Source: Chloroflexota bacterium (GTDB taxonomy: Bacteria; Chloroflexota; Anaerolineae; Aggregatilineales; Ch27). Taken from it: a stretch of DNA of 64,000 nucleotides. The stretch spans positions 1 through 64,000 of the forward strand of contig JAIOAT010000006.1 of NCBI GenBank assembly GCA_019873685.1. Direction: 5' to 3'. This document shows positions 1 to 26,872 of this stretch, piece after piece. The notes under the pieces were generated by a model, which was given only the letters and a program-made list of their open reading frames with translations, was not told the DNA's origin and did no database searches. The position numbers were made by a program, and so were the translations under genes. The first letter of the stretch is position 1. Every line of letters begins with the position of its first letter.

Positions 1-1095
1 GACTGGCTCAACCAGGTCGGCGGTGCGGAAGATGTGCTGGCCGACCTGACTGCGCTTTACCCCGACGCGCCGATCTACACCAGCATCTACGCCCCGGCGC
101 GGATGCCCGCCGCCCTGCGCGACCGGGACGTACGCACCCTGTGGCTGGATCGCCTGCCGGGCATTCATGATCACCACCAGCCCTACCTGCCGCTTTACCC
201 GCTGGGCTGGGATGGGCTGGACCTCTCTGACTATGACGTGATCCTGAGCAACAAGAGCGGCTTCTGCCACGGTGTGCGGCACGGGCCGCGGACGCTGCAC
301 ATCTGCTACTGCCTGGCGCCCACCCGCTATGTCTGGCAATTCGAGAGTTACGTTCAGCGGGAGGCCCTCGGCCCGGCGCAGGTGGCTCTGCTGCGCCCGC
401 TGATCGCCCTGCTGCGCCGCTGGGATCGCGCCGCCGCCGACCGCGTCGACCATTTCGTCGCCATCAGCACGGAGATTCAGGAGCGTATCCGGCGCTTCTA
501 CGGGCGCGAGTCAACGATCATCTACCCGCCGGTGGAAACTGCCCGCTTCCAGCCTGTCCCGCTGGAGGAAGTCGGGGACTATTTCCTGGTCGTTTCCCGC
601 CACATTCCTTACAAGCGCCTGGACCTGGCCGTGCAGGCCTGTACGGCGCTGGGTCTGCCGCTCAAGGTCGGCGGGCGCGGGCGCGATACGGAGCGCCTGC
701 GGGCGCTGGCCGGGCCAACGGTCGAATTCCTGGGCTACGTCCCGGAGGATGAGTTGCCCGGTCTGATGGCCCGCTGCCGGGCATTCCTCTTTCCGGGGCT
801 GGAAGACTTCGGAATCGCACCGCTGCAGGCCAACGCCGCCGGACGGCCGGTGATCGCCTACGCGGGCGGCGGCGCACTGGAGACCGTGATCCCCGGCGTA
901 ACCGGCGAGCACTTCCCGGAGCAAACGGTGGAAAGTCTGGCGGCGGTTCTGCGGGCCTTTGATCCGGCCCGCTACGATCCGGCGGCGCTGCGCGCCCATG
1001 CCCTCAGGTTCGACACAGGCGTGTTCCGGCGGCAAATCGCCGCCTATGTCGAGGAGGCCTGGGCGGATTTCCAGCGGGGTCAGCGGCGGCGCTGA
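1..1095 (+). CDS. GT4-family glycosyltransferase, 5' end cut by the window
   Basis: Probable retaining GT-B glycosyltransferase that moves a sugar from a nucleotide-sugar to a glycan or lipid acceptor at the cytoplasmic face. The frame is open to base 1, so the first residues lie outside the window. GGAEDVL near the visible start is the usual N-terminal loop of GT4 enzymes. The C-terminal Rossmann half shows GYVPEDELPGL and FPGLEDFGIAPLQA, the donor-nucleotide region with its conserved Glu, then a helical tail. VVSRHIPYKRLD resembles the inter-domain strand of mannosyltransferases of the WbaZ type. Donor and acceptor cannot be read from the sequence. It ends 11 bases before the stop of a convergent gene. 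Confidence 0.85.
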   Translation, partial: DWLNQVGGAEDVLADLTALYPDAPIYTSIYAPARMPAALRDRDVRTLWLDRLPGIHDHHQPYLPLYPLGWDGLDLSDYDVILSNKSGFCHGVRHGPRTLHICYCLAPTRYVWQFESYVQREALGPAQVALLRPLIALLRRWDRAAADRVDHFVAISTEIQERIRRFYGRESTIIYPPVETARFQPVPLEEVGDYFLVVSRHIPYKRLDLAVQACTALGLPLKVGGRGRDTERLRALAGPTVEFLGYVPEDELPGLMARCRAFLFPGLEDFGIAPLQANAAGRPVIAYAGGGALETVIPGVTGEHFPEQTVESLAAVLRAFDPARYDPAALRAHALRFDTGVFRRQIAAYVEEAWADFQRGQRRR

Positions 1096-24912: not shown

Positions 24913-25440
24913 TTACCCGGCGTCGCCGTCGCCGGATGGCTGCCCGGCGCTGGCTGCCGCTTCCGCGGCTGCGGCGGCCCGCCAGCCCGCGATCAGTTCG
25001 CGGATCACGGCCATGTCCAGGTTCTCATAGTAATGGAAGTTGCACTGCAGCACCGGCGCTTTGTCACAGGCGGCCAGGCACATCACCCGTTCTACCGTGA
25101 ACAGGCCGTCAGCGGTTGTGCCGCCGTCTTCCACGCCCAGCTCGGCCAGCAGCTTCTGGTAGAACTCCTCCGCGCCGCGCAGGGCGCAGGGCAGATCGGT
25201 GCAGACCTGGAGCCAGTACTTGCCCTTCGGCTCCTCGCGGAACATGGTGTAGAAACCGGCGATGGAGCGCACCTGGGTGGGGTCCACGCCGATCAACTCG
25301 CCGATCTCCACCAGCGCCCCGTCGGTGATGTAGCCATATTCCTCCTGCGCCAGGTAAAGCAGGGGCATCACCGCCGAACGACGATCAGGGTACTTGGCAA
25401 AGATCGCTTCGATGCGATCGGGATATTTCTCTTTGAGCAT
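24913..25440 (-). CDS. nuoE: NADH:quinone oxidoreductase subunit E-like [2Fe-2S] protein
   Basis: Thioredoxin-like ferredoxin that holds the N1a-type 2Fe-2S cluster next to the FMN subunit of complex I or of formate/NAD-reducing hydrogenases. Ligands are visible as CTDLPC (C-x4-C) and CLAAC (C-x3-C). The N-terminal helical domain (YPDRRSAVMPLLYLAQEEYG) is typical. The last 20 residues are an Ala/Gly-rich extension. The partner genes nuoF and nuoG are not adjacent on either side, which is unusual. A possible -10 (TATAGT, 25486-25491 reversed) lies about 45 bases upstream, and a DnaA-box array 200-290 bases upstream. Confidence 0.88.
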   Translation of the reverse strand: MLKEKYPDRIEAIFAKYPDRRSAVMPLLYLAQEEYGYITDGALVEIGELIGVDPTQVRSIAGFYTMFREEPKGKYWLQVCTDLPCALRGAEEFYQKLLAELGVEDGGTTADGLFTVERVMCLAACDKAPVLQCNFHYYENLDMAVIRELIAGWRAAAAAEAAASAGQPSGDGDAG

Positions 25441-25637
25441 GAGCGCGCATCACCTCTTGAATTGCGTGGCCGGGCACTGGAGCAAACTATAACACATCGC
25501 GCCTGCTCCGCCAGCGGTGATAGTGTATCGAATTCGGTTGAAATGCGAACTGGCTGTGCACTGCGATTCATCCCCATTGCGCTACGCGCGGATTCCCCCA
25601 TCGCCGAATAATGGGGGGAACACGGGCCGGGACTGCC

Positions 25638-25730
25638 TGTGGATAAGCGGGCGGAACGCTGTGGATAAGGCGGGCGGAAGTTGTGGATGGCTGGGGATGG
25701 GCGGGTGGATAAGCGGACGAGTTATCCACA
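25638..25730. promoter_or_regulatory. DnaA-box array: four direct boxes in 22-bp register plus one inverted
   Basis: 9-mers at 25638-25646 (TGTGGATAA), 25660-25668 (TGTGGATAA), 25682-25690 (TGTGGATGG) and 25704-25712 (GGTGGATAA) begin exactly 22 bases apart, two helical turns. A perfect inverted box TTATCCACA is at 25722-25730. The boxes sit in a degenerate 22-bp tandem repeat, like plasmid iterons. TTATCCACA is the established DnaA consensus. Three of the five are exact. It could be part of a replication origin, a DnaA-titration site or a DnaA-controlled promoter for nuoE. Which of these is not decidable from this window; no dnaA, dnaN or rep gene is present. Confidence 0.75.
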
Positions 25731-25755: not shown

Positions 25756-25802
25756 GCAAAAACGGAGCGGGAAGGTACGGTCGGCGTGCCGTACCTTCCC
25801 GC
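25756..25802 (-). terminator. Strong intrinsic terminator of the propeller gene
   Basis: A perfect 14-bp stem (25767-25780 with 25789-25802), an 8-base loop and, on the minus strand, a T5 run (25758-25762). It lies 27 bases past the stop of the secreted propeller protein. It isolates that gene from the DnaA-box region. Confidence 0.88.
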
Positions 25803-25828: not shown

Positions 25829-26872
25829 TTATTCGCGGGTCACGGTGCCGGTCGCCAGCCCGATTGACAGGCTGGTATCCCGCGCCGCAGGGATGCCATA
25901 GTAAAGATAGTACGTTTCGTCCACGGCCACCAGCGTTGGCCACCATGGTGCATCCAGGGCGTTCAAAGCCACGACCGGCGCATCGCCGATGCGCGTCCAG
26001 TGGATGCCGTCCGCGCTGCTGGCGTAGCCGATGCCGGGCAAGACTCCTGCCTCGGCGTGGGCGCAGGGCAAACCGAAGTAGACCATATCCCAGCCCGCTG
26101 GCCCGGCCCACACACTGGCTTTTTGCACCGCGCCGCTATCCCACGAACCCGGCGGCCCGACATCCAGCACCGGATCGTAGCGCATGAATGGCCGCAACTC
26201 GACCTCTGGATCGTCATACTTCTCAAACGTCAGACCATCCGGGGAGATGGCCAGGCCGATCGATGGCCGCAGGTAGGTATCCCAGCCGGTATAGTAGAGC
26301 AGGACCGTGTCATCCTGGCGGACAGCGTCCGTCGCCGCGATATAGTGATCCCATGAGCCGGACGTGCCTTCCAGCACCGGCTGGCTCTCGATCGTCCAGG
26401 GGCCGGTCGGCGCGGCGGAAGTCGCCCGCAGGATCGAGCGGGCGGGCATAATCCCCGGCAGAGGGTGAGGATTGAGGTACAGCACCCAGCCGCCATCATG
26501 CAGAACCGCCCCAACCGAAACGCCGCACTCAAAGGGGCGGCGGCAGCGCTGAATAATCGGGTTGCCGACATAGCGGGTCCAGGTCACGCCGTCTTCCGAT
26601 GTGGCGTAGCCGACCGCCCAGGCTTCATGTTCCAGGGAAGTACCGCCGGTGTAGAACAGGTGGAAGCGCCCGTCCGCATAGATCACATCGCCGGGCATGA
26701 CAAAGCCAGAATCCCAGGCCCCTGCCGGGCCTGGCCGCAGCACAGGCGCGGCCTGTGGCGTAAACGTCACTTCCGTGACTGCTCCGCCGGTCTGGGCGGC
26801 CAGGGCAGCGGGGAACAACAAACTGATGCATGCTGCCAGCGCAAGCGCGAAGATGCGGCGATAGAGCATCAC
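25829..26872 (-). CDS. Secreted five-bladed beta-propeller, glycoside-hydrolase-like (GH43/GH32/GH130 superfamily style)
   Basis: A signal peptide (about 1-28, ending AALAAQ) precedes a propeller whose blades share the pattern (D)G-x-(F/W)-x-L-(F/Y)-Y-(T/G) and YATSEDGVTWTR, seen at least four times. The pattern suits the five-bladed fold of GH43, GH32 and GH130, which cleave arabinans, fructans or mannosides. Clear catalytic Asp and Glu cannot be assigned, so a non-catalytic or unrelated sugar-binding role is possible. It stands alone, with a strong terminator behind it. Confidence 0.7.
   Translation of the reverse strand: MMLYRRIFALALAACISLLFPAALAAQTGGAVTEVTFTPQAAPVLRPGPAGAWDSGFVMPGDVIYADGRFHLFYTGGTSLEHEAWAVGYATSEDGVTWTRYVGNPIIQRCRRPFECGVSVGAVLHDGGWVLYLNPHPLPGIMPARSILRATSAAPTGPWTIESQPVLEGTSGSWDHYIAATDAVRQDDTVLLYYTGWDTYLRPSIGLAISPDGLTFEKYDDPEVELRPFMRYDPVLDVGPPGSWDSGAVQKASVWAGPAGWDMVYFGLPCAHAEAGVLPGIGYASSADGIHWTRIGDAPVVALNALDAPWWPTLVAVDETYYLYYGIPAARDTSLSIGLATGTVTRE

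Follow-up and report, generated by a model that had tools for sequence, protein, structure and literature searches.

The datA locus of E. coli is a non-coding region away from oriC with five DnaA boxes, the sequence and spacing of which are conserved among strains, and DARS1 and DARS2 of E. coli are likewise small non-coding sets of DnaA boxes (PMC4585315). datA stimulates the hydrolysis of DnaA-ATP and requires an IHF site between its essential boxes, whereas DARS, of which Fis/IHF sites are features, has the opposite effect on DnaA. Titration of DnaA on the E. coli chromosome is also described (PMC12371093). For B. subtilis, the review PMC5295017 describes DnaA-box clusters (DBCs) outside the origin, and early initiation when all six are deleted (Okumura et al. 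2012).

We analyzed a window of 64,000 nucleotides (the whole stretch of DNA under study, C6:1-64000), which belongs to a 4.1-Mb draft genome in 109 contigs (G000). The nearest genome compared, G001, is from the same genus. The array at 25638-25730 comprises three exact boxes, one box with one mismatch, and one with two, as follows:

25638..25646, minus strand: DnaA box 1, TTATCCACA, exact; same in G001
25660..25668, minus strand: DnaA box 2, TTATCCACA, exact, 22 bp from box 1; same in G001
25682..25690, minus strand: DnaA box 3, CCATCCACA, two mismatches, 22 bp from box 2; same in G001
25704..25712, minus strand: DnaA box 4, TTATCCACC, one mismatch, 22 bp from box 3; same in G001
25722..25730, plus strand: DnaA box 5, TTATCCACA, exact, inverted; same in G001

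A preliminary description of this DNA had placed box starts at 25638, 25660, 25682, and 25704 and an inverted box at 25722, and these coordinates and the 22-bp steps were found again, the first four boxes reading on the minus strand. The box at 25722, which it had called a perfect inverted copy, is an exact TTATCCACA on the plus strand, and the 22/22/22 spacing of the four same-strand boxes bears out the helical phasing that it had described; the DnaA-box cluster is real.

Like datA, the array has five boxes, is non-coding, and is conserved in spacing and sequence; for datA, an IHF requirement and an action on DnaA-ATP are known in addition. The resemblance to DARS1 and DARS2 lies in being a small non-coding box set; DARS has its own box arrangement, Fis/IHF sites, and an effect on DnaA opposite to that of datA. 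As in the B. subtilis DBCs, boxes are clustered outside the origin, but here their register is strictly 22 bp, and only one or two clusters of this kind were found per genome. A chromosomal oriC shares the box consensus and the two-turn spacing; the array differs in having fewer boxes and no clear unwinding region, with a conserved origin-like cluster lying elsewhere. The dense, phased, and conserved boxes, taken with a canonical DnaA and a separate origin-like cluster, suggest to us a secondary cluster of DnaA boxes on the chromosome, outside oriC, i.e., a datA- or DBC-like sink or activity modulator, a reading to which we give a probability of about 0.62. The evidence from the array fits a passive sink and a datA- or DARS-like nucleotide-state element alike.

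The number of boxes in the whole window is ordinary, with three occurrences of TTWTNCACA against 0.89 expected and 7 of 100 shuffles reaching three. It is the clustering, not the count, that stands out: 8 Mb of DNA simulated with a first-order Markov model of the window's dinucleotide composition had no place with three boxes (≤1 mismatch) within 93 bp. The local box density in the array is far above chance, as in a DBC, and 3 of the 15 exact boxes in the draft genome lie within it. The preliminary description had named many equally dense clusters genome-wide as grounds for refutation; the only others seen were a cluster on contig C36 and a row of three boxes on C8, clusters without exact boxes having been sought only by a TTATCC pair pattern.

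Comparison with G001, whose NuoE is 99% identical, speaks to conservation. The whole array is present there at C23:16250-16342, and the alignment of the two genomes shows identity at 45/45 box bases, with all spacings kept, versus 38/48 linker bases (Fisher p 0.0008). The spacer toward nuoE is identical at 31 of 111 bases (28%). Because the array has been kept whole while this adjacent spacer diverged, it looks selected as a unit within the genus, as judged from the sequences of two species. It had also been held that the 22-bp phase should not be lost among close relatives, and within the genus the phase and all boxes are indeed kept. The array shows two further marks of a DBC, namely, separation from the origin-like cluster on C36 and conservation in one same-genus genome. 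DnaA binding to the array is a prediction, and the boxes could in principle be the sites of another regulator with a DnaA-box-like motif; we consider this very unlikely, given that three boxes have the exact 9-base consensus and that motif and two-turn spacing are as in oriC-like clusters.

The array lies in the intergenic region upstream of a nuoE-like gene, with the following neighbors:

24913..25440, minus strand: nuoE-like gene (thioredoxin-like [2Fe-2S] ferredoxin, NADH dehydrogenase subunit E; PF01257, E 8e-47), downstream of the array
25488..25496, minus strand: probable nuoE -10 region, TGTGTTATA, 56 bp before the ATG, as judged by comparison
25767..25802, minus strand: hairpin (perfect 14-bp stem, then TTTTT), the probable terminator of the upstream gene
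25829..26872, minus strand: glycosidase-like upstream gene (weak, below-cutoff GH43 match), ending 98 bp before the array

The hairpin, including its loop, is the same in G001 at 43/43 bases, and the T tract that follows it in G000 is missing there; it was ruled out as a repeated element, being single copy in the genome. No match to the GH43-like gene was found in G002 or G003. A sigma-70 consensus scan gave no match at TGTGTTATA. Since this element is shared 56 bp before the nuoE ATG by G000, G001, and G002, and occurs at -143 in G003, the nuoE promoter is probably there, ∼140-235 bp downstream of the array.

A regulatory role for an array in a promoter-bearing intergenic region is possible. 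DnaA bound there could activate or repress the nuoE promoter ∼140 bp downstream, so that respiratory complex I would be expressed according to the state of replication; a DnaA-controlled nuoE switch had been proposed next to titration in the preliminary description. The array occupies the region upstream of nuoE in both species of the genus, and rows of DnaA boxes elsewhere in the order also precede genes, e.g., lexA in G004. However, the nearest box is ∼140 bp upstream of the probable -10, G000 and G001 differ by 29 bp in the distance from promoter to array while the internal spacing is constant, and none of 38 other nuoE loci has two boxes within 150 bp despite the conserved promoter element. 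In other genera, the nuoE locus lacks the array, and its distribution marks the array as genus-specific at nuoE and no fixed part of nuoE regulation. The TGTGTTATA element is present in three genera, two of them without the array, and its retention there counts for a secondary cluster. Titration stays the best of the readings first proposed, and a nuoE switch is possible yet weakened; we hold it unlikely, if worth keeping in view. We are also doubtful that the array is a genus-specific, DnaA-controlled element by which the NADH dehydrogenase (nuoE) promoter follows the state of replication or, alternatively, a Chloroflexota datA/DARS-like nucleotide-switch site on a strict two-turn register.

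The preliminary description had offered a replication origin as another reading, and five boxes, with exact tandem and inverted ones among them, could be taken to mark a second or bipartite origin. A larger oriC-like cluster with family-wide architecture lies elsewhere, at C36:35810-36272 (L020:9811-10273), with 11 boxes of ≤1 mismatch each. Its counterparts are on G001:C29, G002:C10, G003:C223, and G004:C216; box order is kept in these five genomes of the family, and the boxes lie at nearly equal distances from an inverted anchor box (offsets 165/186/206 etc.) across G000-G004. The cluster has a cytidylate-kinase-like gene on one side and a GAF-histidine kinase gene on the other. The histidine kinase gene adjoins it in G000, G001, G003, and G004, and in G051, which belongs to another family, a homologue is the neighbor of the origin-like cluster. 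From this architecture, the C36 cluster is likely the chromosomal oriC of the family. It is not next to dnaA, which is on C46 with no box of ≤1 mismatch within ∼1.5 kb. The dnaA product has the GGRDHTTVMH motif and matches both E. coli domain IV (1j1v) and a full-length DnaA (8btg); the genome encodes a canonical DnaA. Of the papers found on Chloroflexota origins, none was on point by title and abstract.

The array itself has neither a family-conserved box architecture nor a clear AT-rich unwinding region (no 50-bp window beside it exceeds 0.54 AT), and cumulative GC skew over joined C16 and C6 has no clear extremum there. We note that skew is weak and noisy at C36 too, and it was rejected as too noisy for placing the origin on these contigs. 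C6 and C16 are probably adjacent, the start of C6 (window 1-111) overlapping the end of C16 by 111 bases. In G002, the origin-like cluster has a homologue of the C6:1-1095 glycosyltransferase ∼2 kb away; a link of C6 to the origin by synteny was set aside because, given this overlap, C6 probably does not abut C36. An origin at the array was set aside in favor of the C36 cluster, and we regard a second origin as highly improbable. The non-origin role that had also been suggested is upheld by the separateness of the two clusters.

A likeness to plasmid iterons had been drawn as well. The 22-bp periodicity and the occurrence of phased triples in viral contigs are compatible with iterons or the remnant of a plasmid or integrated-element origin, and Tandem Repeats Finder (TRF) reports 2.4 copies, with an indel, at 25637-25688. 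The degenerate 22-bp tandem repeat first described is in that respect only weakly true, but the linkers, set side by side in the 22-bp register, give 13 matches, no better than shuffled linkers do (mean of 15.5), so that whole repeat units are not alike, as those of iterons are, and the likeness falls. The neighbors of the array are syntenic with G001, and no Rep-like gene was recognized by eye among the ORFs of 18-36 kb. We judge an iteron origin extremely improbable.

In each family genome examined, further phased boxes occur outside oriC at other genes, which supports the interpretation as a secondary cluster. A phased cluster precedes an rlmI-like methyltransferase gene in G000 (C8), G001 (C15), and G002 (C182), with the common order TTATCCCAA-20-TTATCCACA-22-TTRTCCACA, and phased boxes precede a DUF6544 gene in G003. 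Most spacings in these extra clusters are near multiples of 10.5-11 bp. The rlmI-like clusters are at L107:7394-7480 (G000:C8), L106:7375-7461, and L104:4509-4842, that of G002 being larger. DnaA-like boxes with steps of 10-11 and 21 bp lie directly upstream of lexA at L114:2431-2545 (G004:C64). In G015, three boxes 20 and 22 bp apart (L105:6563-6613) lie just past the 3' end of dnaA (L105:6718-8106, minus strand).

Across 400 Chloroflexota genomes, 113 of the 143 tandem exact-box pairs listed are 20-22 bp apart; these pairs are not independent, many being from homologous origins. Spacings among the pairs listed are 19 (6), 20 (37), 21 (66), 22 (10), 41-42 (15), and 12 bp (5), with four others, and reversed-pattern controls gave nil. 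Exact box triples in viral contigs form 57 stretches at 21 bp, 53 at 22, 8 at 24, and one at 27. Triples at one of the first two spacings occur in more than 100 of these contigs, e.g., L168-L220 and L223-L278. Because the same spacing recurs in Chloroflexota pairs and viral triples, the two-turn register is a general trait of DnaA-box rows and not peculiar to this array; it is probably due to the geometry of DnaA oligomers on DNA.

As a secondary cluster, the array might work as follows. DnaA would bind the exact boxes and spread cooperatively along the same side of the helix onto boxes 3 and 4, which are weaker and spaced by two helical turns; it would then meet a monomer on the inverted box 5, so that several DnaA molecules would be held or inactivated. 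The sink would double as the fork passes, and re-initiation would be restrained, as with datA of E. coli and the DnaA-box clusters of B. subtilis and Streptomyces; any influence on nuoE transcription would be secondary.

To the best of our knowledge, control of initiation by DnaA sites outside the origin is established in only a few model bacteria. The array is a well-bounded candidate for such control in Chloroflexota, and would be an element of a known kind. The analysis also locates a likely oriC for the family that is not next to dnaA. The two-turn spacing, common across the phylum, suggests that DnaA favors a particular geometry on double-stranded DNA, which is testable.
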